In this document: one piece after another, positions 8,646 to 63,781 of the stretch
How the letters are laid out: every line of letters begins with the position of its first letter
Numbering within the stretch: position 1 is the first letter of the stretch
Source: Novosphingobium subterraneum
GTDB taxonomy: Bacteria > Pseudomonadota > Alphaproteobacteria > Sphingomonadales > Sphingomonadaceae
Assembly (NCBI RefSeq): GCF_000807925.1
Contig: NZ_JRVC01000015.1
Location: forward strand, 62,001 to 126,000
Reading direction: 5' to 3'
Length of the DNA stretch: 64,000 nucleotides
The notes under the pieces: model-generated
Databases searched by the model: none
What the model was told of the DNA's origin: nothing
What the model saw: the letters and a program-made list of their open reading frames with translations, nothing else
Position numbers and translations under genes: made by a program

Positions 8646-9824
8646 TCACATCTGCGGTTCGGGGAGGTCCGGATCGTCCTGCAGATACCAGTCCAGCCAT
8701 TCGTGGAAGTACTGGTTGCCGCGCTCGTTGCGACCGAACACCAGCTCGTCATGCGCGCCGGTTTCGAGGCCCTTCTGGATTTCGAGGCCGATGAGGTAGT
8801 CTTCCGTATAGGTGACGTCGCGGAAGAAGTTCATCGCCGCTTCGACGTTTGCGCGGTCCTCCTCGTCGCGGATCGGTTCGCGGCGCAGGTAGTTGAGCAC
8901 GGTGCGGTTCTCGCCCGGCGTCGGTCCGGGGAAGAGCTGGGCGACCTGGGTGATCTCTGGCGCGATGAAGGCCGAGACGTTGGGGAACATGATACGGACG
9001 AAATCGAAACCGTTGTTCTCCTGCGTGCCCCACTCCTCGCGCGGGATGTCCTTCAGGGCATCAGCGATCTTGTGGTGCGGGAAGCCGATGCGCTGGTGCG
9101 GGCCGAAGCCTTCGTAGTGCATGCAGTTCGATGGCGTGCGCGGGAAGATCGTTTCGGGGTGGAGCGAGGCAAAGTGATACCCTTCAAGATAGCCGTCATA
9201 GGCGATCTTCCAGTTGGCGCCCTCGATCACGCGGCTGCCCATGTAGGTCCACTTGTCGAACTCGAGCGCTTCGAAATCCTCGAGGAAACCACGATAGAAC
9301 GCATCAACATCGATCGGTGCGTTGGGGGTGAGCACGACAAAGATCATGCCCGCCTTTTCCTGACACGGCAGCTCGCGCAGGCCCAGTTCCGACTTGCGGA
9401 CCTCGCCGAACTTCGATGCTTCGGAAATGCCGATCAGCTTGCCGTCCTGGCCGAAGGTCCAGCCGTGGTACTTGCAAGTGAAGCGCGGGCAATTGCCGTG
9501 GCCTTCGTTCGCCACCGGAGCGCCGCGATGCGAGCAGACATTCAGGAAGGCGCGGACCTTGCCGGTCTTGTCGCGATTGATCAGCACCGGCATGCCGACG
9601 GCATCCATCGCCTTGTAATCGCCGGGGTTGGGCATTTCGGCGGTGAAGGCAAGCATCAGCGGCACGCGCTTGAACACCAGCTCCATTTCCGCCTTCCACT
9701 GGTCCGGGTCAGTGTAGCTGCGCACCGGCACGCGCTTGGTGCTGTCGGTCAGGAAGGTCTTCTTGTTCTCGACATAGTCGCGCATGATTTCAGCGACTTG
9801 TCCGATGCGCTCGATACGGTCCAT
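8646..9824 (-). CDS. Rieske [2Fe-2S] ring-hydroxylating oxygenase alpha subunit
   Basis: 392-aa catalytic subunit that would hydroxylate or demethylate an aromatic or alicyclic substrate with O2. The Rieske ligands are C97, H99, C117 and H120. The mononuclear-iron domain has bridging D210 and facial-triad histidines H217 and H222 in DGYLEGYHFASLH. The third acidic ligand is probably in the TYTEDYLIGLE helix. ATG 9824 with GGAGAGG upstream is preferred over an extended frame. No beta subunit, ferredoxin or reductase lies next to it, so electron partners are elsewhere or are the nearby flavoprotein. It is divergent from an acyl-CoA ligase across 146 bp. Confidence 0.92.
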   Translation of the reverse strand: MDRIERIGQVAEIMRDYVENKKTFLTDSTKRVPVRSYTDPDQWKAEMELVFKRVPLMLAFTAEMPNPGDYKAMDAVGMPVLINRDKTGKVRAFLNVCSHRGAPVANEGHGNCPRFTCKYHGWTFGQDGKLIGISEASKFGEVRKSELGLRELPCQEKAGMIFVVLTPNAPIDVDAFYRGFLEDFEALEFDKWTYMGSRVIEGANWKIAYDGYLEGYHFASLHPETIFPRTPSNCMHYEGFGPHQRIGFPHHKIADALKDIPREEWGTQENNGFDFVRIMFPNVSAFIAPEITQVAQLFPGPTPGENRTVLNYLRREPIRDEEDRANVEAAMNFFRDVTYTEDYLIGLEIQKGLETGAHDELVFGRNERGNQYFHEWLDWYLQDDPDLPEPQM

Positions 9825-9878
9825 CTGGGTATTGCCTCTCCGTGGCCTTGTAGCCAATGTTGCTTGCGACCATGCCGT

Positions 9879-9888
9879 GCACCGGTGC
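9879..9888. promoter_or_regulatory. Palindrome between Rieske and acyl-CoA ligase genes
   Basis: GCACCGGTGC is a perfect 10-bp palindrome midway in the 146-bp divergent intergenic region. It is a candidate operator for shared control of both operons. It is short enough to arise by chance in GC-rich DNA. Confidence 0.3.
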
Positions 9889-9970
9889 GGTGCGAAAGCT
9901 GTGACAGGGGCTAGGTTACTCACCTTTTCGCCAATTGCTGAAGCGCTCGGGCGCTTGGAACAAGCAGGGC

Positions 9971-11596
9971 ATGAACGAGAACACTGCAAAACCCTGGGAC
10001 TGGCTGCCGATTCCTGCACCGCATCAGCGCGAATTTGCGCAAGGGTCGGCATGGCAGCGCAAGACGCTGGCAGACCTTGCCCGTGAGCGGGCCGCGGCGA
10101 CGCCGGACTTCGTGTGCTTCATCGATGGGGAAGGGCAGTACACCTTCGCACAGGTGCTGGCCGAGGCCGAGGCACTGTCTGCCTCGATGCAGGATCGCGG
10201 GCTGCGCAGCGGAGACGTGGTTGCGTTTCAGGTGCCCAACTGGCGCGAAGCAGCCGTGATCAATCTGGCGGCGGCGCTTTCGGGCCTTGTCGTCAATCCG
10301 ATCGTGCCGATCTACCGTGACGCCGAAGTGACGATGATGCTCGGCGATTGCCGTGCCCGCGCGATCTTCGTGCCGGAGGTGTGGCGCAAGGTGGACTATG
10401 CGGCGATGGCGCGACGCTGCCAGCAGTCGCTCCCCGATCTCGCACATGTCTTCACGGTACGCGGTGACGGGCCTGACGATTTTGCGGCGCTGGTGGCCGC
10501 CGGGCGCGGCGTGCCCTTCGATGCCCCTGAGGTTGACCCGCTGGGCGTGAAGATGGTGCTCTATACATCGGGCACCACCGGACGCCCCAAGGGCGTGTTG
10601 CATAGCCACTGCACGCTGGCCCATATCGTCGCTGCCAGCGGGCGGCATTGGGGCCTGGCGGAAGGTGAGGCGACGCTGATGCCCTCGCCGGTCACGCATG
10701 TATCCGGTTACGCCAACGGCCTCGAAGCGCCATTCATCTGCGGAATTCGCTCCGTCCTGATGGAAGCCTGGAACGCCGACGAGGCGCTCGCCCTGATAGA
10801 GCAGCACGATCTTGTCGGCACAGTGGCGGCAACACCGTTTCTGGTGGAACTGGCGGCGGCTGCGCGGGCTGCCGGCACGGGCCTGCCGAGCTTTCGCTTT
10901 TTCGCATGCGGTGGCGCGGCCGTGCCGGCAGACCTCATCCCGGCGGCCAACGCTGCCTTCGAGAACTGCAGGGCATTCCGCGTGTTCGGTGCATCCGAAG
11001 TGCCGCTGGTGACATTCGGTTGGCCCCGCGACGAAAGTCTTGCCGCCACTACCGACGGTGAAGTGGTGGACTACGAAGTCCGCATTGTCGACCACGAGGA
11101 CCACGCCTTGCCGCGCGGAGTAGAAGGCGAGATCCTTGCACGTGGCCCTGGCATGATGATGGGATACGCCGACGCAGCACAGACCGCCGAGGCGATCACG
11201 CCGGACGGCTTCTTCCGCACCGGCGACCTTGGCGTGCTGGACGATTCTGGCGCAGTCACGATCACGGGTCGCAAGAAGGACCTCATCATTCGCGGTGGCG
11301 AGAACATCTCGGCCAAGGAAATCGAGGACGTGCTGCACACGCACCCTGCGGTGAAGGAAGCGGCGATCGTTGCCATGCCGCACGAGCGCCTTGGCGAAGG
11401 CGTTTGCGCCTATGTCATCCTTGCAGGCGAGGCCGGCAGCGGGGACCTGGTGGCACACGTTTCCGCATCGGGCCTTGCCCGTCAGAAGATCCCCGAGCGG
11501 TTCGAATTCGTCAGCGATTTCCCGCGTACGGCCAGCGGCAAGGTACGCAAGGACATGCTGCGGGCGATGGTGCGAGCAGCCTTATTGGAGGGCTGA
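9971..11596 (+). CDS. AMP-dependent acyl-CoA synthetase/ligase
   Basis: 541-aa ANL-superfamily ligase converting a carboxylic acid, ATP and CoA to an acyl-CoA. P-loop LYTSGTTGRPKG is near residue 196, the A5-like motif FGASEVP follows, then RTGDLG, and the C-terminal catalytic lysine motif TASGKVRKD. The length and PWDWLPIP start resemble cyclohexanecarboxylate-CoA ligase or medium-chain ligases. The frame extends 36 nt upstream to a TTG; ATG 9971 is chosen although its ribosome-binding site is weak. It is divergent from the Rieske operon, suggesting CoA activation of the substrate or product. Confidence 0.88.
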   Translation: MNENTAKPWDWLPIPAPHQREFAQGSAWQRKTLADLARERAAATPDFVCFIDGEGQYTFAQVLAEAEALSASMQDRGLRSGDVVAFQVPNWREAAVINLAAALSGLVVNPIVPIYRDAEVTMMLGDCRARAIFVPEVWRKVDYAAMARRCQQSLPDLAHVFTVRGDGPDDFAALVAAGRGVPFDAPEVDPLGVKMVLYTSGTTGRPKGVLHSHCTLAHIVAASGRHWGLAEGEATLMPSPVTHVSGYANGLEAPFICGIRSVLMEAWNADEALALIEQHDLVGTVAATPFLVELAAAARAAGTGLPSFRFFACGGAAVPADLIPAANAAFENCRAFRVFGASEVPLVTFGWPRDESLAATTDGEVVDYEVRIVDHEDHALPRGVEGEILARGPGMMMGYADAAQTAEAITPDGFFRTGDLGVLDDSGAVTITGRKKDLIIRGGENISAKEIEDVLHTHPAVKEAAIVAMPHERLGEGVCAYVILAGEAGSGDLVAHVSASGLARQKIPERFEFVSDFPRTASGKVRKDMLRAMVRAALLEG

Positions 11597-11694: not shown

Positions 11695-12183
11695 TCAATC
11701 GTCGTCGGGGACCACTTCCGGCTTGGTGATCTTGGCCATGCGGGCGTTGTACTTGACCGTCTTGACCGCAATCGAGGTTTCCACGTGGTGGACGCCGTCG
11801 ATGGACAAGATCTTGTCGGAGGCCAGTTCGACCAGTTCGTCCAATTCGTCGATCAGGCTCATCGCAGTGATGTTGAACTGGCCCATGGTGATCAGCACGG
11901 CGTTGACGCCCGGCACCTCGGCGATGATCTGTGCCACTTCGCGGACACGGTCGACATCGGCCTGGACGTTGATGAAAGCGAGACGGGCGAGCTTGCCCAT
12001 TTCGAACCCGGTGATCGCGGTAAAGGCGATCAGGCCGTCCTGCTGCAGCCGCTTGATGCGCCCGCGCACGGTGCCTTCGGTAACGCCGAGTTCTGCCGCG
12101 ATCTTGCGGTTGGAGATGCGTGCGTCGAGCGCCAGCATGTCGACCAGCTGGCGGTCAAGTGCGTCAAGCTGAACCGCGGCCAT
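11695..12183 (-). CDS. Lrp/AsnC family regulator, pair 1 type A
   Basis: 162-aa feast/famine regulator. The N-terminal HTH contains ISNRKIAAELGVTEGTVRGR; a RAM (ligand-sensing, oligomerising) domain follows, with GQFNITAMSLI. It ends in KTVKYNARMAKI. The ATG overlaps the stop of the upstream regulator by 1 nt (ATGA), so both are made from one mRNA. Its HTH is strikingly like that of the gene at 60718-61245 and unlike that of its own neighbour. It probably controls the adjacent acyl-CoA ligase/Rieske genes, perhaps as a hetero-oligomer; this is inference. Confidence 0.9.
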   Translation of the reverse strand: MAAVQLDALDRQLVDMLALDARISNRKIAAELGVTEGTVRGRIKRLQQDGLIAFTAITGFEMGKLARLAFINVQADVDRVREVAQIIAEVPGVNAVLITMGQFNITAMSLIDELDELVELASDKILSIDGVHHVETSIAVKTVKYNARMAKITKPEVVPDDD

Positions 12184-12686
12184 CAGGCGTTCCCTCCATT
12201 GCCGCGGCTCTCGCCGGGGCGGCCCTCGATCGGAGCGACGTCGAACTGGTACTTGATGATGTCGACCACGATGTGTGGCGTCAGCGTGCGGATGCCGCGC
12301 ACGGTGGAAAGCTTGTCGAGCAGGAATTCCGAAAGGTCGTCGAAATCGTGCAGGGCGACGAGCATGTCGATGTCGTAGCGACCAGTCACCATGTGCGCAG
12401 CGACCACTTCGGGCAGGGCGCCCAGTTCCTGCGCGACCTCTGACGCCGGGCGGCCGTCAACCTCGACCGAGATGCGCAGCAGGACGTTGAAACCGTGGGC
12501 GGTGAAGTCCGACACAGCGACAACGCGCAATTGGTTGGCATCTTCCATGCGGCGGATGCGGGTTGACACCGTCGTCGCCGTAAGCCCCAGGACTTCGGCG
12601 ATCTGCTGGTTGTTGGCCCGCCCGTTCGCCCGCAATTCGCGGATGATCGCCTGGTCGGTCGCGTCGAAACTGAAAATCTGGCTCAT
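12183..12686 (-). CDS. Lrp/AsnC family regulator, pair 1 type B
   Basis: 167-aa Lrp/AsnC protein: HTH NNQQIAEVLGLTATTVSTRI, then a RAM domain with the GRYDIDMLVALHD segment. ATG 12686 (MSQIFSFD) is chosen for GGGGAC upstream; an ATG 15 nt earlier lacks a site. It is the first gene of a two-regulator transcript. Shared blocks such as RVVAVSDFTAHGF and EVAQEL make it the counterpart of the gene at 61242-61733. The C-terminal extension after IIKYQFDVAPIEG is Gly/Arg rich and probably disordered. Confidence 0.9.
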   Translation of the reverse strand: MSQIFSFDATDQAIIRELRANGRANNQQIAEVLGLTATTVSTRIRRMEDANQLRVVAVSDFTAHGFNVLLRISVEVDGRPASEVAQELGALPEVVAAHMVTGRYDIDMLVALHDFDDLSEFLLDKLSTVRGIRTLTPHIVVDIIKYQFDVAPIEGRPGESRGNGGNA

Positions 12687-12871
12687 CGGTCCCCGCGCCA
12701 TGGTGCCGTGACGGCAGACCTTGCGGTTTGCGCAGCAACACCGCGACCGTCAACCTCAAACTGCTGGTCAAGCGCGCAGTTAACGCACTTTTCCGTAAGT
12801 TGTCAGCCTGCCGTCCCGCTTTCGACACACGCAAGTCAAAACGGTGAAACGAAAATCCGACAACTACTGGA

Positions 12872-14134
12872 TCATTCCTGTGCGCCCTGTTCGTGGCTGC
12901 AATCGAGCCAGAGATGATGGGCATCGATCCTCAATTTCGTCTCGGCCCGCAGCGCTGCGGCCCGTGCCTGGGTTTCGGCCAGAGCTGCATCCTTTGCCTG
13001 ACGCTCGGCGAGAAGCAGATCGGCGAGATCGACGTGACCGAGGCGATTGCCGGCCTCCAGCCGGTCGGCCGCACGCCTGCTGCTGGCTGCGGCCGCCGCT
13101 GTCGCCTTCCATGCCTGCACTGTCCCGAGCGCTGCCGAGTAGTCTGTCGTGGCCATCTCGATCACGTCGAAACGGGCGCTGGCGGCTTCGGCAACAGCAA
13201 CTTGCGCCTCGGCTGCGGCCTGATCGGAGAGCGCTGCGCGGTAGCGGCCGCCGATCGGCATCGAAAACACGATTCCGGCGCCACGTTCCAGTCCGCCCCG
13301 TTCGCTGAAGAACTGCGCGCCGATAGTCGGATCGGCGATGCGGTTGCGACGGCTGCGCTCAGCCAGGGCGGCGAGCCGCTCGGATTCGGCCAATGCCGCG
13401 GGGAGTTCATGATTGCAGGTCATGACGGCTTCGCGCAGGCGGGCAAGTTCCTCAGGTGGCAGCCCCGGCTTGGACAACGGTGGCGCTTCGGCAGGCAAGG
13501 CCAGTTGCGGGAACTGGGCGACCAGCCTTTCGCGCGCAATTCCTGCCCCGGAAAGCGCCGCATCCAGCCCGGCGCGGTTCATGGCGGCCTCGGCCATGGC
13601 ACGGTCGGCATCCACTTGCGCAGCATCCTGCACGCGCACCTGGCTGTCCACTGCCCGATAGGCGCGCTCCAGCGTCTGTTGCGTCTGGGCCAGCGTGCTG
13701 GCCTCGGCAGCTGCCGCGACCCAATCCCACCACAGCTCGTTCAGTTGCAGCGCCAGCTGGTGGCGGGCGTCTTCGGCGCGCAGTTCGGCAACGCGGACAC
13801 CGAGAGCGCCGGCCTTGCGGTCAAGCGCGGACTTGCCCGGCAGGCGGATGGGACGCTCGAGCGAGACGGTGTATTCAGCGTAGCGCCCTTCGTCCTGGAT
13901 GGTGCGCCGGCTGACATCGCCGGACACCGTGAACTCGTTCTGGGTGGCACCTAGCGCGTTCGCCTCCTGCCGTGCGGCTTCAACCCTGGCATCGGCCGCG
14001 CGAGAGCGGGGGTGGGCCTCGATCGCCTCCACGACGGCGGCATCGGAGAGGCCGGGGAGCGACTGGTCGCTGGTCTGGGCAAGGAGCGGGGCCGCCATCA
14101 GCAGCGGCCATGCAAGAACAAGATTGTACTTCAT
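12872..14134 (-). CDS. TolC/CzcC-family outer-membrane efflux protein
   Basis: 420-aa outer-membrane channel of an RND tripartite pump. A signal peptide ends near PLLAQ, followed by two tandem OEP repeats rich in Ala/Glu coiled-coil helices (ARVEAARQEANALGA and similar). It is a CzcC-like protein, with the His-containing C-terminus (IDAHHLWLDCSHEQ). The ATG overlaps the stop of the pump gene by 4 nt. It is the last gene of the metal efflux operon; the next region downstream is a 170-bp gap before the Lrp pair promoter. Confidence 0.9.
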   Translation of the reverse strand: MKYNLVLAWPLLMAAPLLAQTSDQSLPGLSDAAVVEAIEAHPRSRAADARVEAARQEANALGATQNEFTVSGDVSRRTIQDEGRYAEYTVSLERPIRLPGKSALDRKAGALGVRVAELRAEDARHQLALQLNELWWDWVAAAAEASTLAQTQQTLERAYRAVDSQVRVQDAAQVDADRAMAEAAMNRAGLDAALSGAGIARERLVAQFPQLALPAEAPPLSKPGLPPEELARLREAVMTCNHELPAALAESERLAALAERSRRNRIADPTIGAQFFSERGGLERGAGIVFSMPIGGRYRAALSDQAAAEAQVAVAEAASARFDVIEMATTDYSAALGTVQAWKATAAAAASSRRAADRLEAGNRLGHVDLADLLLAERQAKDAALAETQARAAALRAETKLRIDAHHLWLDCSHEQGAQE

Positions 14135-17100
14135 GCTGAAGCGCCTTCCATCCCGCCATCGAGCGCAGCGCGCTCGGCGGAATTTTCGCCGAACCGCTCA
14201 TAGAGCATCGGCAGGAGGAACAGGGTGAGCAGCGTCGAGGTGAAGAGACCGCCAATCACGACGATCGCCAACGGCCGCTGGATCTCCGAGCCCGGACCAC
14301 TGGCAAACAGCAGCGGCACGAGGCCGAAGGCGGTGATCGCGGCGGTCATCAGCACCGGGCGGAGACGACGCTCTGCACCCTGGCGGACGGCTCGCTCCAG
14401 GGTCAGTCCCTGATCGCGCAACTGGCGGAAATACGTGACCATGACGAGCCCGTTGAGCACGGCGATGCCGAGCAGGGCGATGAACCCGACCGAGGCGGGC
14501 ACCGAGAGATACTCGCCCGACACCGCCAGCGTCACGATCCCGCCCACGACTGCGAAGGGAATCATCGCGATGATCAGCAGTGAGGCCCTGATCGAGCGCA
14601 AGGTCCAGAACAGCACGCCGAAGATCAGCAGCAAGGCAATCGGCAGGACTACACCGAGCCGGGCCGAGGCGCGCTGCTGGTTCTCGAACTGACCGCCCCA
14701 TTCCAGGCGATATCCGGGCGGCAGCTGGATATTGGCGGCAATGTCGGCCTTGGCCTCGTCGACGAAACCGACGAGATCCCGCCCCGAAACGAAAGCCTGC
14801 ACCACCGCAAAGCGCGATCCGTTCTCGTGGTCGAGCTTGACCGGGCCTTCGACCTGATGGACGCGGGCCACATCACCTACGCGCAGCAGCGTGCCGTCGG
14901 GACTGCGGATCAACTGGTTCGCGAAGACATCGAGGCTCCCGGCATTGGCCGGATCGCCCTTTATCACGATCGGCACGCGCCGATGGCTTTGCGCAACCAC
15001 GCCCGCGTCGGTCCCTTCGAGCTGGGCGCGCAGCACGTCCTGCAGTTCGGCAACCGGCATTCCGGCACGGCCCGCAGCCAAGCGGTCAATATCGATCTGC
15101 AGGTAATCGACCTTGTCGTCCGCCAGGGTCTTGACCTCGGTAACGCCACCGATCCTGCGCAGCCGATCCTGTGCCTTGGCGGCAATCTGACCGAGGGTTT
15201 CAAGGTCGGGCCCGAAGATCTTGAGCGCCAGATCGCCCCGCACGCCGGTAAGCATTTCCGAAACGCGCATCTCGATGGGCTGGGTGAACGATGCTTCGAC
15301 GCCGGGCATTTCCTCCATGGCGAGGCGAATCTGCTCGATCAGCCATTCCTTGTCCTGCTCGCGCCATTCCTCGCGCGGCTTCAGGCGCATGAAGGTATCG
15401 GTATCGTTGAGCGACATCGGGTCCAGGCCGAGTTCATCAGCACCAACACGGGCGATGATGTCCTGCACCTCGGGCACCTTCGACATGATCAGCTTCTGGG
15501 CCTTGAGGTCTCCCGCGATGGTGTGGTCCAGCCCGATGCTCGGCTGCTTTTCGAGCTGCATCAGCACAGCGCCTTCGTCCATCGTCGGCATGAAGGTCTT
15601 GCCGATGAAGCCATAGGCAACCGCCGCTGCCAGCAGCGACCCGCCGGCCATGCCGTAGACGCGCGTCCGGTTTTCGAACGCCCATTGCAGGGCCGAATGA
15701 TAGCGGGGATTCAACTGGCGCATCAGCCATGGGTCGTCGTGGCCTCCATCCTGCTTCAGGCCGAAGTAGGACAGGACCGGGATCAGCGTGAGCGACAGGA
15801 CCAGGGCGCCGGCCAGTGCCAGCACGATCGTCATCGCCACCGGGCCGAACAGCTTGCCCTCCAATCCTTGCAGCGTGAGCAGCGGCAGGAACACCAGCGC
15901 AATGATCGCCATGCCCGAGGCAACCGGGGTTGCCACTTCGCTGGTGGCGACAAGAACCTGATGGAGCTTGCTGGTCGAGCCGTGGTGCGGATGGGCAAAG
16001 CGATCGACCACGTTTTCGACCACGACCACCGCGCCATCGACCAACATGCCGATGGCAATGGCAAGGCCGCCAAGGCTCATCAGGTTGGCCGACATGCCCA
16101 GCCAGCGCATCAGGATGAAGGTGATCAGCGTTGCCATGGGCAGGGCTGCCGCCACGATCAGGGAGGCGCGGACGTTGCCGAGAAACAGGAACAGCAGCAG
16201 GACGACAAGCACGCTCGCCTCGATCAGGGCCTTCTCCACGGTCGAGACAGCGTGGCCGACCAGTTCGGACCGATCGTAGAACACGTCGATCGTCATGCCC
16301 TGGGGCAGACCGCTTTCGATTTCGGTCATGCGCGTCTTGACGTTTTCGACGACCTTGCTGGCATCGGCGCCGCGCAGGGCGATGACGAGCCCTTGGACCG
16401 CCTCGCCCGTGCCGTTCTTGGTCACGGCGCCATAGCGGGTCAGGCTTCCGGTGGTTACCGTCGCCACGTCGCCAAGGCGCAGGACAGTGCCGGCCTGGCT
16501 GCGGATGACGATGGCGCGAAGGTCATCGGCGGTCTGGATGGCGCCCACCGAGCGCACGATCAGCGTGCTTTCGCCATTGGCCAGCCTGCCGGCGCCATCG
16601 TTGCGATTGCCGCTTTCGATGGCGGTCTGGAGATCGTGATAGGTCAGGCCTGCCGCCGCGAGGGCGCCGGGATCGGGCCGAACCTCGAACGTCTCGGCAT
16701 GGCCACCGAGCGAGTTCACGTCAGCCACGCCGGGCACCGTGCGCAGGGCAGGGCGGATGACCCAATCGAGCACGCGGCGCTTTTCCGCCAGCGATTGCGG
16801 ACCTTCGATGGTGAACATGTAGACGTCGGAGAGCGGCGTCGAGATCGGCGCGAGGCCGCCTTCCACCGACGAGGGCAGATCGGCCATGACGTTGTTGAGA
16901 CGTTCGGCGACCTGGGTGCGCGCCCAGTAGATGTCGGTACTGTCGGAGAAGTCGATGGTGATGTCGGCAATGCCGTACTTGGCGGCCGAGCGCAGGATCT
17001 CCTGGTTGGGGATGCCCAGCATCTCCATTTCGATAGGGGTGATGACGCGGCTTTCGACCTCCTCCGGCGTCATCCCCGGAGCCTTCATGATGATCTTGAC

Positions 17101-18347: not shown

Positions 18348-18410
18348 TGCAATGCCTTTCCTGAACGCAAGTTCGTGGCGGCTCGCGAACGAACCGCCCT
18401 GCACAAGGGA

Positions 18411-55345: not shown

Positions 55346-55390
55346 TGCGCAAATAAAAGACGCTTGAAATACGCAAATTGTGCGATACAT
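55346..55390 (+). promoter_or_regulatory. Promoter/operator region before acyl-CoA ligase
   Basis: TGCGCAAAT (55346-55354) and ACGCAAATT (55371-55379) are similar sites 25 bp apart. The second overlaps an inverted repeat, CGCA-AATTG-TGCG (55372-55384). TTGAAA at 55364 and TACATA at 55386 could be -35 and -10 with 16-bp spacing. The TGCGCAAA octamer recurs at 63850 and, inverted, at 12727 upstream of the other Lrp-linked genes. Confidence 0.4.
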
Positions 55391-55427
55391 AGGAGGAAGA
55401 CAAGGCGATACGAGGTTTGGGAGAGCG

Positions 55428-57131
55428 ATGTCCGACATGTTGCGCGATAGCACTCGCCCGCAGGAGGTCGCCTCTGCCGATGCCGTGGTGGCGCGTGTGA
55501 CCGGGCCGGGATCGCCGTTCGAGATCGGCGAGCGTGACGGCTTGCGCCTGTTCATTGCCGCGCCGCCCGATCTCAACCTTCTGATCGAATCCGCGCGTCG
55601 GTTTGGAGACCGCACTTGCGTGGTCGATTTCGACAGTGCGGGCGCCGAACGGCGCATGTCCTACGATCAGGTATTTTCCTGGCGCGACCAGCTGGTGCCG
55701 ATCCTGCACATCGCCCGCGGGGACCGCGTGGCCATTGCCATGCGCAACCGCGCCGAATGGCTAGTGGCGTTCCTTGCCGTGATGAAGGCGGGCGGGGTGG
55801 CGGTACTGGTCAACAGCCGTGGCTCCGGTCCGGAAGTGCTGGCGATGCTCGAAGATGTCGACCCGGCAGTGGTGCTGGCCGACAGCGAGCGCACTGCCGC
55901 GATCCGCGAGGCCGGGTTCAAGGGCCGGGTGCTCGACCTGACCAAGCCATTCAACGCCGACGAGCTGGCGCGCCGCACTGCCGATACCAGTCCTGATGCC
56001 AGTGTGGCAAAGGCTACCGACCCCTGCGCGATCCTGTTCACCTCGGGCACCACGGGCCGGGTCAAGGGCGCGGTGCTTTCGCATCGTAATGTCATCACCG
56101 GGCTGATGTCGACGCAGATGTCGGGCATGATCGTGCTGGGAAACATGGCGGCGCAGATGGGCACCACGCCCGAGGCGCTGATGGCGCAGATGCCGCAGCA
56201 GGCCTCGCTGCTGGTCTATCCGCTGTTCCACGTTTCGGGGCTCGGCTCGGGCTTCCTTTCGCCCTTCCTGGGTGGGGGCAAGGTGGTGATCATGCGCCGC
56301 TGGGATGCCGACGAAGCGGCGCGGCTGATTGCTGCCGAACAGATCAGCATGTTCAGCGCCGTGCCGACGATGCTGTGGGATATCCTGCACCGCGCGCGGA
56401 TCGACGGGACCAGCCTTTCATCCTTGCGCAACATCGGCTGTGGCGGACAGGCGCTGCCGGTCAACCTCGTCGAGGAAGTCCACGCACTGTGCCCGCATGC
56501 GCAGATCGGCACCGGCTACGGCATGACCGAGTGCTCGGGCGCGATCGCGCAGGCTGTGGGGCCGGAGTTCATGGCGCGACCGGCGGCGGCCGGGCGCAAG
56601 CTCGCCATGGTGGAAGTGCGCATCGAAGGGCCGGACGGGCAGGTGCTGGGCGAAGGTGAGACCGGCGAGATCGTGGTGCGCGGCGCGCAGGTCATGCAGG
56701 GCTACTGGAACCGCCCGGAGGAGACCGCTGCCGTGCTGACCGAGGATGGCTGGCTGCGCACCGGCGATGTCGGGATGGTCGATAGCGATGGCTATGTCTT
56801 CATCGTCGACCGCAAGAAGGACATGGTCATCTCGGGCGGCGAGAACATCTACTGCGCCGAGGTCGAGCGCGTGCTGGGCACGATCCCCGGCCTGACCGAG
56901 TGCGCTGCCTTCGGCCTGCCTGACGAGCGGCTGGGCGAGCGGCTGGTCGCCGTGGTCATCGCGCCGAACATAGACGAGGCGGGGGTGATCGCATGGGTCG
57001 CCAGCCGCCTTGCCCGCTACAAGGCGCCCAGCCGGGTCGCCGTCACTACCACGCCACTGCCGCGCAATGCGCTGGGCAAGGTCGACAAGATCGCCTTGCG
57101 CAAGCTGTGGCCGGAACTCTCTGGAGAATAA
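55428..57131 (+). CDS. AMP-dependent acyl-CoA synthetase/ligase
   Basis: 567-aa ANL-superfamily ligase. P-loop LFTSGTTGRVKG is near residue 202, then GTGYGMTECSG, RTGDVGM and DRKKDMVISGGENIY, with the C-terminal Lys in NALGKVDK. It resembles long-chain/aryl-CoA ligases of sphingomonad degradation gene sets. ATG 55428 (MSDMLRDS) follows GGGAGAG closely; the next ATG at 55437 is an alternative. An amidohydrolase-like gene follows after 4 nt. It would activate a carboxylic acid for the acyl-CoA dehydrogenase steps encoded later in the block. Confidence 0.9.
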   Translation: MSDMLRDSTRPQEVASADAVVARVTGPGSPFEIGERDGLRLFIAAPPDLNLLIESARRFGDRTCVVDFDSAGAERRMSYDQVFSWRDQLVPILHIARGDRVAIAMRNRAEWLVAFLAVMKAGGVAVLVNSRGSGPEVLAMLEDVDPAVVLADSERTAAIREAGFKGRVLDLTKPFNADELARRTADTSPDASVAKATDPCAILFTSGTTGRVKGAVLSHRNVITGLMSTQMSGMIVLGNMAAQMGTTPEALMAQMPQQASLLVYPLFHVSGLGSGFLSPFLGGGKVVIMRRWDADEAARLIAAEQISMFSAVPTMLWDILHRARIDGTSLSSLRNIGCGGQALPVNLVEEVHALCPHAQIGTGYGMTECSGAIAQAVGPEFMARPAAAGRKLAMVEVRIEGPDGQVLGEGETGEIVVRGAQVMQGYWNRPEETAAVLTEDGWLRTGDVGMVDSDGYVFIVDRKKDMVISGGENIYCAEVERVLGTIPGLTECAAFGLPDERLGERLVAVVIAPNIDEAGVIAWVASRLARYKAPSRVAVTTTPLPRNALGKVDKIALRKLWPELSGE

Positions 57132-57135
57132 CGAA

Positions 57136-58002
57136 ATGGCCATGCCCACCAACATCGGCATCATCGACTGCATGCTCGGCATTCCCGATGCCGAGGACCG
57201 CGCCGAGTGGTTCGCGCCGTTCCGCCCGCTGATCAAGGACAAGCAGACGCTGGGCCAGTTCGCCATGCCCGCGCAGTACATGTTCAAGGACATTCCGCAG
57301 TCGGGCCAGCAGGACGATTACCTTGCCTGGACCGTGGCGCAGATGGACAAGCACAACGTCGAGAAGGCGCTCGTCGGCTGGAACGAGAACGAAACATCGT
57401 ACCGCGCCAAGGAGCTCTACCCCGACCGCTTCTTCTTCGACCTGCCGGTCAACCCGAACAACGGCACCGAGGAAGTCCGCCGGATCAAGCGCATCCACGC
57501 CGAAGTCGGCCTCTCCGCCGTCTCGGTGTTCCCCTCGGGCACGCTCCCGCAGGTGGCGATCAACCACAAGTATATGTGGCCGATCTATTCCGCGTGCGAG
57601 GAACTGGGCCTGCCGATCCTGTTGAACGTCGGCATTCCCGGCCCGCGCATCCCGATGGAGACGCAGAAGGTCGAGCACCTCGACGAGGTCTGCTGGTTCT
57701 TCCCCGAACTGAAGGTGGTCATGCGCCACGGGGCCGAGCCGTGGGAGGCGCTGGCGGTGAAGCTGATGCTGAAATGGCCGAACCTCTATTATTCGACCAG
57801 CGCCTTTGCGCCCAAGCACTACCCCAAGGCGATCATCGACTATGCCAACACGCGTGGCGCCGACAAGGTGATCTACGCCGGCTACTTCCCGATGGGCCTC
57901 AGCCTCGATCGCATCATGTCCGACATGCAGAACGTGCCATTCAAGGACGAGGTGTGGCCCAAGTTCCTGCGCGAAAACGCGATGAAGGTGTTCGGGCTCT
58001 AA
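57136..58002 (+). CDS. Amidohydrolase-2 fold protein lacking canonical metal ligands
   Basis: 288-aa protein of the amidohydrolase_2/ACMSD-like TIM-barrel family (decarboxylases and hydrolases). The N-terminal D-x-H-x-H metal motif is replaced by IIDCMLGIP (residues 9-17). The usual barrel-strand His is N164 in LLNVGIPGP, and the C-terminal catalytic Asp motif (GTDYP or GSDWP type) is AGYFP at 248-252. Only H198 in MRHGAEPW is kept. It is therefore likely metal-free: either a changed enzyme or a scaffold/binding protein. GGAGA precedes the ATG, and it sits between ligase and Rieske genes in one operon. Confidence 0.85.
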   Translation: MAMPTNIGIIDCMLGIPDAEDRAEWFAPFRPLIKDKQTLGQFAMPAQYMFKDIPQSGQQDDYLAWTVAQMDKHNVEKALVGWNENETSYRAKELYPDRFFFDLPVNPNNGTEEVRRIKRIHAEVGLSAVSVFPSGTLPQVAINHKYMWPIYSACEELGLPILLNVGIPGPRIPMETQKVEHLDEVCWFFPELKVVMRHGAEPWEALAVKLMLKWPNLYYSTSAFAPKHYPKAIIDYANTRGADKVIYAGYFPMGLSLDRIMSDMQNVPFKDEVWPKFLRENAMKVFGL

Positions 58003-58091: not shown

Positions 58092-59165
58092 ATGGCGGAT
58101 CCAGTGGCAACAGATGCCCGCACCGCTCCGGTGGCGGTGTGGCAGATCCTCGAGAAGCTGAAAGGCAAGGACCTGACCGACTGGCGCACCGCGCCGGTAC
58201 CGGGCCGTGCTTCGGTGGCAGAACGCAATCTCGACATCGGCTTCCCGCTCGGCTGGTATCCCATCGACCTTTCGGCAAACCTTGCCGTGGGCGAGGTGAA
58301 GCCGCTGCGCTATTTCTCGCAGGATCTTGCCATGTGGCGGGGCGAGGACGGCAAGGTCCGCGTGCTCGATGCCTACTGCAAGCATCTGGGCGCGCACATG
58401 GGCCATGGCGGCAAGGTTCATGGCAACCTGCTCGAGTGCCCGTTCCATGCATGGCGCTATGACGGGGAAGAGGGGACCGTGAAGGAAATCCCCTATTCGA
58501 AGTCGATCCCGCCGCAGGTGAAGCGCAAGTGTACGCGGACCTGGCATGTCACCGAGGCGAACCGCTGGATCTGGGTGTGGTATCATCCCGAGGAGGCCGC
58601 GCCGCTTTTCGACGTGGTCCACCTGCCCGAGGCAACCGATCCTGAGTGGACCGACTACGACATCTACGAATGGAACGTCTACGGTTCGATCCAGAACATG
58701 GCCGAGAACGGCGTGGACGTGGCCCACTTCAAGTACATCCACGGCACCGCCAACGTGCCGCTGGGCGATCTGCGCTGGGGCGAATGGGGCCGCGGGGCCG
58801 ACGTCAAGGCCAAGATGGGTACGCCGTGGGGCGAGGTCGACGGCCAGATCAGCTATGACACGATGGGTCCGGGGCAAAGCTGGACGCGCTTTACCGGCAT
58901 TTCCGAGACGCTGCTGGTGGCCTGCATCACCCCGGTCGAACTGGACCATGTCCACGTGCGCTTCTGCTTTACCCAGCCCCGGGCTCAAGCCGAGGGTGAG
59001 CGGGCCGGCGTTGCCCGCGCCATCATCCGCGACATCTGCAAGCAGTTCGATCAGGACAAGGTGATCTGGGATCGCCAGAAGTTTGAGCCCAATGCCCTGA
59101 TCTGCGAAGGCGACGGCCCGATCGCGCAATTCCGCAAGTACTATTCGCGGTACTACGTGAAGTGA
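58092..59165 (+). CDS. Rieske 2Fe-2S oxygenase, KshA-like terminal oxygenase
   Basis: 357-aa single-polypeptide Rieske oxygenase. Cluster ligands are C96, H98, C116 and H119 (YCKHLGAHMGHG, ECPFHAW). The mononuclear-iron site has N206, D209, H212 and H217 in ENGVDVAHFKYIHG. This spacing is typical of 3-ketosteroid 9-alpha-hydroxylase (KshA) and related enzymes on terpenoid or alicyclic substrates. GGAGTGAAAC precedes the ATG. No reductase gene is adjacent. Its TGA overlaps the amidase GTG start (GTGA). Family is firm; a steroid substrate is only suggested. Confidence 0.92.
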   Translation: MADPVATDARTAPVAVWQILEKLKGKDLTDWRTAPVPGRASVAERNLDIGFPLGWYPIDLSANLAVGEVKPLRYFSQDLAMWRGEDGKVRVLDAYCKHLGAHMGHGGKVHGNLLECPFHAWRYDGEEGTVKEIPYSKSIPPQVKRKCTRTWHVTEANRWIWVWYHPEEAAPLFDVVHLPEATDPEWTDYDIYEWNVYGSIQNMAENGVDVAHFKYIHGTANVPLGDLRWGEWGRGADVKAKMGTPWGEVDGQISYDTMGPGQSWTRFTGISETLLVACITPVELDHVHVRFCFTQPRAQAEGERAGVARAIIRDICKQFDQDKVIWDRQKFEPNALICEGDGPIAQFRKYYSRYYVK

Positions 59166-60667
59166 AGACGACCAGACGGGAAGCCCTTGCCGGCGGAATT
59201 GCGCTTGCCGCAACCGCCGGCCTGCCGGGGAATGCGCACGCGATGAACGACGTCCTCGATACCCACGATTCTCTCGGGCTTGCCGAGTTGGTGAGAATGC
59301 GCAAGGTTTCGGCCAGCGAGCTGTTGGAAGCGGCGATTGCGCGGGCCGAGGCCCTGAACCCGCAGCTGAACTTCATGGCGCAGAAGCACTACGACTACGC
59401 CCGCAAGGCGATCGCGGCAGGCCTGCCGCAAGGGCCGTTCAGCGGCGTGCCGTGGCTGCTGAAAGACCTCAACACTTATATTGCCGGCGAAGTCACCGAG
59501 AACGGCAGCCGCCTCTACAAGGGCCAGCGCGCCAGCGTGACCTCCGAACTGGTGCGCCGCATCGAACGCGCCGGATTCGTGATTTTCGGCAAGACGACCA
59601 CGCCCGAGTTCGGCCTGACCGGCACGACCGAAAGCGTGCTCATGGGGCCGACGCGCAATCCCTGGAATCGGGAGCGGATCGCGGGCGGATCGTCGGGCGG
59701 CGCGGCGGCAGCGGTGGCGGCGGGTGTGATTCCGGCGGCGCACGCCACCGACGGCGGCGGTTCTATCCGCATTCCGGCTTCGGCCTGCGGGCTGTTCGGC
59801 CTCAAGCCCTCGCGCGGCCGGGTGCCGATGGGGCCGCTCAGGACCGAAGGCTGGGGCGGCATGTCGGTTCACCACGCAGTCAGCCGCACGGTGCGCGATT
59901 CCGCCGCGATCCTTGATACGACGCACGGGGTGGAGCCGGGCTCGCGCTATAGCGCACCGACGCCGGAACGGCCGTTCCTTCAGGAGGTCGGGCGCGATCC
60001 GGGCAAGTTACGCATCGCGCTGATGCTCAGCCCGTATTCTGGCGCGCCGGTCGATCCGCAAGTGGTGAAGGCCACTAAGGCGGCAGCCAGGCTGCTCGAA
60101 AGCCTTGGCCACCATGTCGAGGAGGCAGCGCCGAAGATCGACATGGCGGCGATCGGGGCGAGCAGCTTTGCGCTGATGGCGTCGTCGGTCGCGGCCGATT
60201 GCGTGGACCGGGCCAAGGCGCTGGGCATTGAACTGGGCCCCGACGTGCTGGAGCGCACGACGCTCGATTTCGTGGCGATGGGCAAGAGCTACACCGGCAT
60301 GGACTTTGCGCGCGGGAACAACGCCTACCAGGCGGCTGCCGTGACGATCGCGCAGTTCATGGAACGCTGGGACGTGATTCTTTCGCCTACGCTATCGGCG
60401 CCGCCGCTGCCGCTGGGCCGGATCGGCCTGGATACCGGCCGTTCCATGATGGACTGGGGCCGCGAGGTCGGCACGTTCACCGCGTTTACCGGCATCTATA
60501 ACGGCACCGGGCAGCCGAGCATGTCACTGCCACTGGCAATGTCGCAAGATGGGCTGCCGATCGGCATCATGGTAACTGGCCGCTTTGGCGAAGAAGGGTT
60601 GCTCTTCCAGCTGGCTGGGCAGGTGGAACGCGCCGCGCCGTGGGCAGGGCGGCGAGCGAAGGTCTGA
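59162..60667 (+). CDS. Amidase, amidase-signature family, Tat-exported
   Basis: 501-aa Ser-cisSer-Lys amidase. The signature Gly/Ser-rich stretch GGSSGGAAAAVAAG is near residues 178-191, the catalytic Lys is in GVPWLLKDLN near 101, and the cis-Ser lies in the DGGGSIRIPAS region near 199-209. The N-terminus KTTRREALAGG is followed by a hydrophobic stretch ending near NAHA, a Tat-type signal, so it probably acts in the periplasm. GTG start overlaps the Rieske stop. It would release ammonia or an amine from an amide substrate. Confidence 0.9.
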   Translation: MKTTRREALAGGIALAATAGLPGNAHAMNDVLDTHDSLGLAELVRMRKVSASELLEAAIARAEALNPQLNFMAQKHYDYARKAIAAGLPQGPFSGVPWLLKDLNTYIAGEVTENGSRLYKGQRASVTSELVRRIERAGFVIFGKTTTPEFGLTGTTESVLMGPTRNPWNRERIAGGSSGGAAAAVAAGVIPAAHATDGGGSIRIPASACGLFGLKPSRGRVPMGPLRTEGWGGMSVHHAVSRTVRDSAAILDTTHGVEPGSRYSAPTPERPFLQEVGRDPGKLRIALMLSPYSGAPVDPQVVKATKAAARLLESLGHHVEEAAPKIDMAAIGASSFALMASSVAADCVDRAKALGIELGPDVLERTTLDFVAMGKSYTGMDFARGNNAYQAAAVTIAQFMERWDVILSPTLSAPPLPLGRIGLDTGRSMMDWGREVGTFTAFTGIYNGTGQPSMSLPLAMSQDGLPIGIMVTGRFGEEGLLFQLAGQVERAAPWAGRRAKV

Positions 60668-60717: not shown

Positions 60718-61245
60718 TCAAGGCTGGTCTTCGATACTCGCATCCATCCAGCGCAAGTCCTCCACCGTGGCGATGGGGCCGATGGCGGCATTGTATTTTA
60801 CCGTCTGGAGAACCAGCTCGGTCTCGGCTTCGCGGATGCCTTCCAGCGCCAGCACCCGGTTGGTGACGGCAGCTGCGTCTTCAAGGCTGGGCAGAACGCA
60901 GATGGCGATCAGGCGCAGCGCGGCGTTGGCGTCATAGAGCGCGCGGACCTCGGGCAGGGCGAGCAGGCCTTCGCGCACGGCATCGAGCTTGCCGCTGGCG
61001 CATTTCACCGTCACGAACATCATATGTTGGCCGGCGTTGGTAGCGTCCAGTCCGCGCGCTATATCGACGATGGGGACGAGCTTGAGCAGCCCCGCGGTCT
61101 GCAGCCGCTTGACCCGCCCGCGCACCGTGCCTTCGGTGACGCCGAGGTCTGCGGCAATCTTGCGGAAAGAAAGACGCGCATCGTCGGCCAAGGCTTCGGC
61201 GATCTGTCGGTCTAGCTCGTCGGTCTGCGGGAACTGGTCGATCAT
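60718..61245 (-). CDS. Lrp/AsnC family regulator, pair 2 type A
   Basis: 175-aa Lrp/AsnC protein with HTH LSFRKIAADLGVTEGTVRGR, nearly the same recognition region as the gene at 11695-12183. Its RAM domain ends in QTVKYNAAIGPIATVEDL, followed by an acidic tail. The ATG overlaps the stop of the upstream regulator (ATGA). It forms a two-regulator operon like the one at 11.7-12.7 kb and probably controls the surrounding ligase, Rieske, amidase or dehydrogenase genes. Confidence 0.9.
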   Translation of the reverse strand: MIDQFPQTDELDRQIAEALADDARLSFRKIAADLGVTEGTVRGRVKRLQTAGLLKLVPIVDIARGLDATNAGQHMMFVTVKCASGKLDAVREGLLALPEVRALYDANAALRLIAICVLPSLEDAAAVTNRVLALEGIREAETELVLQTVKYNAAIGPIATVEDLRWMDASIEDQP

Positions 61246-61733
61246 GCGGCGATGGGGCCAACGGCGGTGTTGTAGCGGTAGACGGTGTTAAGCAGTTCGA
61301 CGTCGACGTCCTCAACGCCTGCGATCCCGGCCGAAACGTCGCGCGCGGCCTCGATCATCTCGCGCGCGGCGTGGAAGGCATAGAGGCAGCTGACCGGGTA
61401 ACGGCCCGAGGTAAGGTGTACTGACAGCACATGTTCGCGCTGTGCCAGTTCATGCGCAACCTCGAGCGGGGCGCGGCCGCTCACCTGAAGGCGGATGCGG
61501 GCAAGCAGACGATAGCCGTGGACGCGAAAGTCCGCCAGGGCAACGACGCGCATCAGCCCGGCGGCATCCATCGCCCGGATGCGGTTGGCTACCAGATTAC
61601 CGGTCAGCCCCAGTTCCTCGCCGATCACCGTGGATTGCGCGCGTCCATCTCGCTGCAGCACTTCGATGATGCGCAGGTCGATATCGTCAAGCGTTGCGCC
61701 TTTGGCGCGGCGTGTCGGCTTTTCTTCAGACAA
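61242..61733 (-). CDS. Lrp/AsnC family regulator, pair 2 type B
   Basis: 163-aa Lrp/AsnC protein with HTH QSTVIGEELGLTGNLVANRI and RAM domain with LTSGRYPVSCLYAFHA, ending in YNTAVGPIAA. I choose the TTG at 61733 (SEEKPTRR) because GGGGGGA lies about 6 nt upstream and the size then fits the family; the open frame extends to 61793. Its blocks MRVVALADFRVHGY and EVAHEL match pair 1 type B. An ACGCAAA motif (61747-61753, minus strand) lies just ahead of the ribosome-binding site and could be an autoregulatory site. Confidence 0.87.
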   Translation of the reverse strand: MSEEKPTRRAKGATLDDIDLRIIEVLQRDGRAQSTVIGEELGLTGNLVANRIRAMDAAGLMRVVALADFRVHGYRLLARIRLQVSGRAPLEVAHELAQREHVLSVHLTSGRYPVSCLYAFHAAREMIEAARDVSAGIAGVEDVDVELLNTVYRYNTAVGPIAA

Positions 61734-61811: not shown

Positions 61812-62984
61812 TCAGCCGCGCGGTTCGCGAGGAAGACCAAGGCCGCGTTCGGCAATCAGGTTGCGCTGGATCTGGTTGGTGCCGCCGTAGATCGTGTCGG
61901 CGCGGCTGAACAGGAACAGGTTGGGCAGGACGTCCCATTCGTAAGATCCGCCGGCGGCCACTTCGCCCGCCTGGCCCAGTACGTCCATCGCCAGTTCGCC
62001 AAGGCGGCGGCGCCATGATGCCCACTGGATCTTATAGGTGAGGGCAGCGCCGTCGATGCTGGAATGATCGCTGTTCGAAAGCATCCGCAGCGCGCCGTAG
62101 CGCATCAGCCGCAGGCCGATTTCGGCGCTGGCGATGCGCTGGCGGATTACCGGATCGCGGTCCTTGCCGGTGGCCTTGGCCGCGGCGATGATTTCGTCCA
62201 GTTCGTTGCGGAAGCCCATCTGCTGGCCAAGCGTGGACACGCCACGCTCGAACGCAAGCAGGCCCATGGCGATCTTCCAGCCATCTCCTGGTGCGCCGAT
62301 CAGGCTGTCGGCAGGGCAGCGCGCTTCGGTGAAGAAGGTCTCGTTGAACTCGGCATCGCCATTGATCTGGCGTATTGGACGGACCTCGATGCCCGGCTGA
62401 TCCAGCGGCATCATCAGGAAGGTCAGGCCCTTTGGCCCTTGCGATCCTTCTTCGGTGCGGGTGACGACGAAGATCCAGTCGGAGATATGGGCGAGGCTGG
62501 TCCAGATCTTCTGGCCATCCACGATCCATTCGCCATCTGCCAAGCGCCCCTTGGTGCGCACGCTGCCAAGGTCCGACCCGGCATTTGGTTCGGAAAAGCC
62601 CTGGCAGAAGATGGTCTTGCCGGCGGCGATATCCGGAAGAAAGCGGCGCTTCTGCTCGTCGGTCCCGAATGTGAGGATGGTGGGGCCGGCCAGCTCCACT
62701 CCGATGTGGTTGATGCGTCCCGGAACTCCGGCCCGGGCATATTCCTCGGCGAAGATCACCTGCTGCGCCAGCGTAGCATCGCGCCCGCCCCATTGCGTCG
62801 GCCAGCCGATGCAGCCCCAGCGGTGTTCGCCGAGCTGCTGCTCCCATTCGCGCCGCCGTTCGGGCATGGCGGTAAGCTGGGTCACGCCCCTGATATCGCG
62901 GAATTCGCCCGCCATCTGGCCCTGCAGCCACTCGGCGCATTCGGCGCGGAAGTCTTCGTCGGCGGCGGAAAATCCAAGCTTCAT
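61812..62984 (-). CDS. Acyl-CoA dehydrogenase (FadE/steroid-catabolic type)
   Basis: 390-aa FAD-dependent acyl-CoA dehydrogenase introducing an alpha-beta double bond. Family motifs are CQGFSEPNAGSDLGSVRT near residues 127-144, KIWTSLAHISDWIFVVTRT near 162-180, and the C-terminal IYGGTNQIQRNLIAER. Length and FAD motifs resemble one subunit of heteromeric acyl-CoA dehydrogenases used on steroid or cyclic acyl-CoAs, but no partner gene is adjacent. The ATG at 62984 has GAGG upstream; a TTG at 62999 would overlap the SDR stop. Confidence 0.9.
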   Translation of the reverse strand: MKLGFSAADEDFRAECAEWLQGQMAGEFRDIRGVTQLTAMPERRREWEQQLGEHRWGCIGWPTQWGGRDATLAQQVIFAEEYARAGVPGRINHIGVELAGPTILTFGTDEQKRRFLPDIAAGKTIFCQGFSEPNAGSDLGSVRTKGRLADGEWIVDGQKIWTSLAHISDWIFVVTRTEEGSQGPKGLTFLMMPLDQPGIEVRPIRQINGDAEFNETFFTEARCPADSLIGAPGDGWKIAMGLLAFERGVSTLGQQMGFRNELDEIIAAAKATGKDRDPVIRQRIASAEIGLRLMRYGALRMLSNSDHSSIDGAALTYKIQWASWRRRLGELAMDVLGQAGEVAAGGSYEWDVLPNLFLFSRADTIYGGTNQIQRNLIAERGLGLPREPRG

Positions 62985-62995
62985 GTCGCTGCGCC

Positions 62996-63781
62996 TCAAC
63001 CCGGCATATAGAGCTGCGCGGCTTTGCCGCCATCGACGGGCAGGGCAGTGCCGGTGATGTAGCTGGCTGCGCTGGAGAGCATGAACACGATCGCCTCGGC
63101 CAGTTCGTCGGGTTCGCCGCCACGCTGCATCGGGATGGCGCGGGTGGTTGCGGCCGCAAAATCAGGCGCGCGGCTTTCATAGTCCTGCGTCGCGGCGGTC
63201 TGCACCTGCCCCGGCACGATGGCGTTGATCCGGATGCCGAGCGGGGCACCTTCCATCGCCGCAGCTGCGGTGAAGTGGACCAGTGCGGCCTTCGAGGCCG
63301 AATAGCTTGCCATGTTGGCCAACGCTTTGATCCCGCAGGTGGAGGCGATGTTGACGATAGAGCCGCGCTGGCGACCATCAATATCCTGCTTCGCCATCAC
63401 CGCCATTGCCGCCTTGGTGCCGACGAACACGGCATCGGCATTGACTGCAAAATCCTTGCGCCAGTGTTCCAGGGTCAGCTTCGAAATCGGTGCGTAGTGC
63501 ACCGACATGGCATTGTTGACGAGCATGTCGAGCCGTCCATGTCGTGCGGCAACATCCTCGATCAGAGCGGTGAAGGCGGCATCATCCGATACATCGAGTC
63601 TGACGGCTTCGACCTTCCCGAATTGCGCGATCTCGGTCCGGGCAGCTTCAAGCTTGTCCTCGCGGCGGGCGCAGATCACCACGGTCGCCCCGCGCGCCGC
63701 GAGAAGCTTCGCGGTGGCAAGCCCTATGCCATCGCTTCCGCCAGTGACCACGGCAATCTTGCCGGTCATGTCATGAGCCAT
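62996..63781 (-). CDS. SDR family NAD(P)-dependent oxidoreductase
   Basis: 261-aa classical short-chain dehydrogenase. TGGSDGIG is at about residues 13-20, NNAM at 90-93, and the catalytic Ser and Tyr/Lys are in NIASTCG and YSASKAAL. It resembles FabG-type 3-hydroxyacyl-CoA or alcohol dehydrogenases. GGGAGAAG precedes the ATG. It is the first gene of the leftward operon SDR, acyl-CoA dehydrogenase and probably Lrp pair 2, and its upstream gap contains the TGGTCAA inverted repeat. Confidence 0.9.
   Translation of the reverse strand: MAHDMTGKIAVVTGGSDGIGLATAKLLAARGATVVICARREDKLEAARTEIAQFGKVEAVRLDVSDDAAFTALIEDVAARHGRLDMLVNNAMSVHYAPISKLTLEHWRKDFAVNADAVFVGTKAAMAVMAKQDIDGRQRGSIVNIASTCGIKALANMASYSASKAALVHFTAAAAMEGAPLGIRINAIVPGQVQTAATQDYESRAPDFAAATTRAIPMQRGGEPDELAEAIVFMLSSAASYITGTALPVDGGKAAQLYMPG

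Follow-up and report, generated by a model that had tools for sequence, protein, structure and literature searches.

The window, that is, the whole stretch of 64,000 nucleotides that was analysed (C15:62001-126000, where C15 is contig NZ_JRVC01000015.1 of the 4.88-Mb genome of Novosphingobium subterraneum), contains two pairs of adjacent genes for Lrp/AsnC regulators (Table 1). These two pairs, reported by an earlier sequence-only reading, are indeed real, and in both of them a type B gene is followed by a type A gene. The ATGA overlap that this reading ascribed to each pair is present in pair 2 (4 nt), whereas in pair 1 the stop codon of B1 and the start codon of A1 have just one base in common (1 nt; TGATG). 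Likewise, the motifs quoted for the two types were found in both proteins of each type, but TVKYNA is located near the C-terminus of the type A proteins and not at their end. Pfam comparisons detected the AsnC-type HTH (PF13404) in A1, B1, A2 and B2 with 43.7-53.9 bits against a cut-off of 27, and the Lrp ligand-binding RAM domain (PF01037) scored over its cut-off in A1, B1 and A2; there was no Pfam match to PF01037 in B2. The AlphaFold model of B2 (mean pLDDT 77.5) displays an HTH and RAM-type elements and, like the model of A1 (pLDDT 80.7), resembles Lrp chains in the PDB, the pTM of 0.50 for both models rendering the domain arrangement uncertain. All four proteins look like full-length Lrp/AsnC regulators, and the HTH in each of them sets them apart from the demi-FFRPs, which are stand-alone RAM proteins. 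With the best 150 candidates scored, at least nine AsnC-type HTH genes were counted in the genome. Six of these are located on the contig of the window, namely the two pairs, the type B gene B3, and an ordinary single Lrp gene (window 46443-46940, + strand) between an aminotransferase and an M20 peptidase.

Table 1. Features of the two Lrp/AsnC pairs and their surroundings (positions in the window unless a contig or locus is named)
Feature	Position	Strand	Remarks
B1, type B Lrp/AsnC regulator, first gene of pair 1	12183..12686	-	167 aa
A1, type A Lrp/AsnC regulator, second gene of pair 1	11695..12183	-	162 aa
B2, type B Lrp/AsnC regulator of pair 2	61242..61733	-	163 aa, TTG start
A2, type A Lrp/AsnC regulator of pair 2	60718..61245	-	175 aa
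B3, lone type B gene	C15:129353-129883 (L018:3353-3883), outside the window		88% identical to B1, without type A
GGTTGACG-N15-CGCAAACC element upstream of B1	12725..12755	-	conserved in the pair 1 subfamily
Rieske ring-hydroxylating oxygenase alpha subunit by pair 1	8646..10052	-	ORF as listed, with a true start that is probably more internal; candidate target
Acyl-CoA ligase, convergent with pair 1	9935..11596	+	candidate target
Acyl-CoA ligase, pair 2 cluster	55380..57131	+	62-68% identical to L192, L193 and L197 homologues, partial alignments
Amidohydrolase, pair 2 cluster	57010..58002	+	84% identical to Chol11 homologue
KshA-type Rieske oxygenase (PF19298), pair 2 cluster	58104..59165	+	84% identical to Chol11 homologue
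Amidase, convergent with pair 2	59162..60667	+	71% identical to Chol11 homologue
Acyl-CoA dehydrogenase gene just upstream of B2	61812..62999	-	85% identical to Chol11 homologue

Adjacency of Lrp genes is unusual. In 24 other Pseudomonadota genomes, for several of which the best 150 candidates were scored, none of 54 AsnC-type HTH matches (E <= 2.1e-7; five weaker matches over the cut-off are left out of the count) was located within 1.5 kb of another, as compared to two pairs here. One of the five omitted matches, G975:C3:138732 from another family, is part of an arrangement in which two weak AsnC-type HTH matches on one strand are 1.5 kb apart, just past the limit (G975:C3:138732-140369). 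Furthermore, for none of the 23 other distinct Lrp proteins encoded in related loci was another Lrp gene located within 500 bp on the same strand, and in a larger set the sole Lrp neighbour of such proteins was a fragment of a type A gene.

The proposed position of each pair beside a Rieske oxygenase and an acyl-CoA ligase was borne out by the annotated neighbours of both pairs. As judged by sequence, the neighbours of pair 2 resemble the bile-salt side-chain cluster of Sphingobium sp. Chol11. The Chol11 locus (L197, also named Novosphingobium sp. Chol11) comprises ligase, amidohydrolase, KshA, amidase, SDR, B, A and ACAD genes, and its enzymes except the SDR are 68-85% identical to the neighbours of pair 2 (68% over a partial alignment for the ligase). 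A table of PMC8399759 lists the Chol11 bile-salt amidase Bsa (Nov2c227), the CoA ligase SclA (Nov2c230) and the ACADs Scd4A/B (Nov2c221/222) nearby one another. This list fits the order of genes at pair 2 and L197, with a putative gene-by-gene match. KshA-like neighbours recur by many other pairs; in these related loci the neighbour labels denote best matches to proteins of the window and of L018 (E <= 1e-15), and the label FAD_KstD is our own name and not a Pfam result. Directly upstream of pair 1 the window holds an RND efflux operon (12872-18404; OEP, AcrB-type and HlyD-type genes). The region between the pairs (19194-48992) encodes a TonB receptor, a peptide-type ABC transporter, two DAO oxidases and aldehyde dehydrogenases, and the same block has a character of amino-acid catabolism, with a D-serine dehydratase-like gene, the M20 peptidase and the ordinary Lrp.

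When adjacent Lrp pairs were searched for in other genomes, as the sequence-only reading had proposed, B-A pairs proved to be conserved, with 170 distinct pairs collected. Types A and B were also predicted to be co-conserved, and this was indeed observed. Across 397 genomes of the family (thresholds 1e-25 for A and 1e-33 for B), the A profile gave 70 matches at E <= 9.2e-51, followed by a gap to 2.8e-34, where the B genes begin; a 71st A gene, in G604, had a weaker score (6.3e-33), yet it is part of a B-A pair. A separate B profile matched exactly the same 46 genomes as the A profile, neither profile passed its threshold in the other 351, and no genome among the 397 contained only one of the two types. 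A recount in these genomes, with at most nine candidates scored per genome so that gene counts are lower bounds, yielded at least 71 A genes, at least 70 B genes and at least 67 B-A neighbours, and zero neighbours in the reverse order A-B.

The 331 loci that were fetched, many of them picked for matching A or B so that proportions describe the collected set, included 177 distinct A and 169 distinct B proteins besides the 170 pairs. B was located directly upstream in 167 of the 177 A, and A directly downstream in 165 of the 169 B. The order was strict: 165 of the distinct A had B only upstream, two had B on both sides (the tandem arrays L121 and L198), and none had B only downstream. Among the ten A without B upstream, four were cut by contig ends (L154, L129, L133 and L316) and six were real. 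A natural fusion of B with A (see below) enters the counts of neither type. A 4-nt overlap was readable in 88 of 134 pairs, where, among several possible start codons, the one nearest to a 4-nt overlap was taken. Outside the family, the A profile finds few genomes. At the class level, it matched 5 of 385 genomes (E <= 1e-30), including the present one, and the matches in G296, G391 and G470 represent B-A pairs while that in G480 is a lone A-like gene. At the phylum level, it matched 3 of 398 (E <= 1e-25), namely this genome, another member of the family, and G1065 with a B-A pair. Type A was detected in 51 of 195 genomes of the genus (E <= 1e-40), and the best 80 of 211 named loci included Novosphingobium, Sphingobium, Sphingomonas, Croceicoccus, Sphingopyxis, Sphingorhabdus, Porphyrobacter and Erythrobacter.

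Within a pair, A and B share 18-32% identity (mean 26%; n=134), as compared to a mean of 46% for representatives of A and of 47% for those of B. Recent tandem duplication was rejected on these grounds, in line with what had been proposed from the window itself. Separate trees of the A and B proteins, envisaged as a sign of co-evolution as a unit, turned out to be congruent: for 59 representatives of the 134 pairs, 21 of 56 splits were common to both trees, versus at most 2 in 1000 partner shuffles, and the distances among A and among B correlated at 0.97, versus at most 0.30 in 2000 shuffles. In a quick tree of 149 rows, type A formed one side of a branch with a support of 85 (SH-aLRT support only), whereas type B, among the rows of which was L044, needed two changes; when the halves of a natural fusion protein (see below) were included as a group of their own, A needed 2 changes and B 4. 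Together, the low identity within pairs and the congruent trees indicate that the split between A and B predates the subfamilies of pairs and that both genes travelled together.

Additional evidence came from a natural fusion of the two proteins. In G874, a genome of the same genus, L314:1006-1989 is one open frame of 327 residues in which B and A are joined in frame by a short linker. The first half of this protein scored 159.6 bits as B and the second half 159.0 bits as A, and it contains two AsnC-type HTH stretches, with an AsnC-type HTH score of 86 bits. Since a start codon is missing between residues 153 and 236, the A half lacks a start of its own. The nearest rows by path to the two halves are the B and A of one pair, L058; the C half groups with A_L058 at a support of 97, and the N half without starred support. 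The A half just reached the cut-off of the NirDL-like HTH (27.8 versus 27 bits). No other type A was detected in G874 at E <= 1e-40, in an assembly of about 250 contigs. Although only this one of 611 frames whose Lrp module exceeds 60 bits is a clear fusion, it provides the strongest indirect sign of a joint complex of B and A. A second protein with two Lrp modules, L044:1336-2457 in G075, is diverged, its first module looking B-like and its second being untypable.

Upstream of B1, a conserved element was detected. In 21 aligned upstream regions of the pair 1 subfamily, GTTGAC and TGCGCAAAC occur at a fixed distance between unconserved flanks. The element was recognisable by eye in 16 of the 21 rows, including that of the window, and it is absent, cut or degenerate in L128, L125, L123, L136 and L261. 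A pattern search that allowed spacers of 8-20 located the element with spacer 14 before B in 17 distinct contexts and with the same spacer once elsewhere, and conservation amounted to 0.95 in both boxes versus 0.48-0.52 around them, a figure inflated for the letters fixed by the pattern. The genome carries one exact copy, before pair 1, and four matches with two mismatches, which is near the control count of two. The element may consist of a -35-like box and a possible operator over the -10 region; alternatively, it may be an inverted repeat with unequal half-sites, which would suit a heterodimer of B and A. An EM search over 41 upstream regions returned TTGCGCAA, which at all three widths used outscored 4 dinucleotide shuffles, in a comparison that favours TTGCGCAA because the shuffles were seeded fewer times (15 versus 40). 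Exact copies were present in 4 of the 41 regions, and one-mismatch copies in 15 of the 41 as compared to about 12% of random stretches from the same loci, coding DNA included. In the window, TTGCGCAA occurs 5 times, each time inside a listed gene frame, and it occurred as often in 2 of 100 shuffles. We keep TTGCGCAA as a weak candidate for an operator common to the subfamilies.

Lrp-family regulators are usually treated as homo-oligomers. For the present pairs, we consider it probable that each specifies a transcription factor of the Lrp type made of two subunits, namely a mixed B.A oligomer in control of steroid-type catabolism. B and A would be translated from one message, in a fixed order and from closely joined reading frames, and would assemble through their RAM domains into a mixed oligomer carrying two different recognition helices. 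This oligomer would control the nearby steroid-type catabolic genes and probably its own promoter, and would respond to an intermediate of the pathway. The conserved order and spacing, the co-distribution, the congruent trees, the fusion, the catabolic neighbours and the upstream element of pair 1 support this reading, and from the co-distribution, the trees, the pair counts and the fusion it is apparent that two distinct subunits are conserved as a unit.

Conceivably, though in our view rather unlikely, A and B are independent Lrp regulators of one pathway, each a homo-oligomer, that are kept together only by their common operon and by joint transfer, for instance with one as activator of the cluster and the second as controller of the first. 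Both types retain HTH and RAM modules, and each could function by itself. Congruent trees and co-distribution would also follow from linkage and from transfer along with catabolic clusters, and gene linkage alone can indeed explain the congruence and much of the co-distribution. For the two contiguous genes in Chol11, PMC12882949 suggests a 'cooperative or differential regulation', in that case of genes for amino acid metabolism. A-B covariation was dropped as evidence of a contact between the two proteins, since partner shuffles within clades gave about the same values. In 134 pairs, the inter-protein pseudo-symmetry reached r 0.054 versus a circular-shift maximum of 0.051. In 170 pairs (effective number 61), r was 0.052, while the within-clade shuffles at three clade cut-offs had means of 0.051, 0.040 and 0.051 and maxima of 0.067, 0.050 and 0.061. 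The observed value was thus within the shuffle range at two cut-offs and just above the maximum at the third (0.052 versus 0.050), and the mean of the top 20 exceeded all 60 shuffles at two of the three cut-offs and not at the third. However, the constant order, the frequent 4-nt overlap, the complete lack of single-type genomes among the 397 and the fusion exceed what two independent regulators would need.

The word "obligate", which the sequence-only reading used of the pairing, is too strong in a strict cis sense, as lone A and lone B genes exist. Lone B genes were found at L018 (B3), L057, L077 and L121, where the B2 of that locus adjoins a B1-A1 pair (4 of the 169 distinct B), and lone A genes at L132, L199, L201, L202 and L203, together with a distant A-like gene (L088/L228) that has no B beside it at its locus (6 of the 177 distinct A). 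A complete pair was also seen in the genome of every lone gene except L228. In the set of 397 family genomes, there were four lone A genes (G569, G133, G061 and G610) and three lone B genes (G000, G071 and G011), all seven in genomes with a complete pair, and the lone-A genomes were all four of the searched genomes of one genus. No degraded partner was detected by tblastn with the collected A and B in the partner-side flanks of ten lone-gene places, under conditions in which the positive control worked.

B3 is located 55 kb from pair 1 and 5.6 kb from pair 2, and abuts an OYE-type gene upstream and a flavin reductase downstream. In relatives of this locus, type A stands between B and the flavin reductase, and in L120, L124, L130, L131, L136, L137, L138 and L140 a complete pair is flanked on one side by a gene resembling the 711-aa OYE-type gene and on the other by a flavin reductase. 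At L018, the genes that follow in the direction of pair 2 keep their order. In N. jiangmenense, A is located directly behind the OYE gene (L132), with the upstream side alike and the downstream side rearranged, and this organism possesses three complete pairs (L284, L297 and L311). From the tree and the neighbours, we infer that the OYE locus lost A in L018 and B in L132. Such single-partner loci suggest that the missing partner can be supplied in trans. Since the OYE locus with its lone B is beside pair 2, pair 1 looks like a copy that stands elsewhere. The distance between the two type A genes is 49 kb both in this genome and in G849, as compared to 4-10 kb in 11 listed genomes.

The persistence of lone A or B copies in genomes that keep pairs, which would shift the ratio of the two proteins, would also fit a dominant modulator, where one protein dilutes or silences the homo-oligomers of the other without inducer and the ratio matters instead of a fixed hetero-oligomer; yet the overlap of the frames and the fusion speak for a constant 1:1 ratio, and we regard such a modulator as very unlikely. 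A heteromeric enzyme of Lrp ancestry and no regulator, like the sirohaem decarboxylase AhbA/B or NirDL, can hardly be expected: AhbA/B is, according to PMC4145669, a heterodimer of Lrp-like subunits encoded by two genes that are fused in most archaea having them, and 4czd and NirDL are among the fold matches of our models, but the NirDL-like HTH scored 20.0 (A1) and 17.3 (A2) versus 27 bits, with neither B1 nor B2 listed, the AhbA profile gave 21.1 versus 140 bits for A1 and was not listed for the other three, the AsnC-type HTH scores are far over their cut-off, including that of the fusion with its one borderline NirDL-like match, and the annotated neighbours are steroid-type catabolic genes.

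Returning to the two-subunit regulator, a more specific version can be put forward tentatively. Here, the two anciently diverged Lrp subunits would form an obligate heteromer that binds asymmetric operators, with unequal half-sites of the kind of GGTTGACG / CGCAAACC, by means of its two different recognition helices and senses a steroid-type intermediate at the A-B interface; the pair would have been duplicated and rearranged among catabolic clusters, and lone subunits would act in trans. If the heteromer is real, bacteria would offer a clean and testable example of regulation by Lrp hetero-oligomers, and the B-A pairs are candidate regulators of bile-salt and other steroid degradation in sphingomonads. 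The pairs represent Lrp regulators conserved as a two-type unit, and a literature search, conducted without most subscription papers and without any bioRxiv preprints, revealed no account of the B-A pair family.

A close precedent is the Sphingobium sp. Chol11 cluster with its two contiguous Lrp/AsnC genes, NCHOL11_RS15865 and RS15860 (PMC12882949), which, with the tags matched by gene content, are very probably the same pair as that in L197. As far as the accessible part of that paper goes, it concerns one pair in one strain and names neither two types nor family-wide conservation, a fusion or a complex. Compared with the known Lrp/AsnC (feast/famine) regulators, such as Lrp and AsnC of E. 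coli and PH0140 and PH1519 of P. horikoshii, the window proteins are alike in the HTH_AsnC (all four) and the RAM domain (three), and the models of B2 and A1 match their chains; in contrast to these regulators, the present proteins belong to two distinct types that are encoded as an ordered and conserved pair and that are naturally fused in one genome. AhbA/B and NirDL (PMC4145669) share the Lrp-like heterodimer that is fused in places, but they are enzymes, and their profiles remain below cut-off in the window proteins while the fusion just reaches that of the NirDL-like HTH. Hetero-assembly of two Lrp-family proteins has a precedent in vitro in the FL11-DM1 hetero-octamer of P. horikoshii (PMC2995911). 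In that case, DM1 is a stand-alone RAM protein, whereas in the pairs of the window both partners possess an HTH and are co-encoded.
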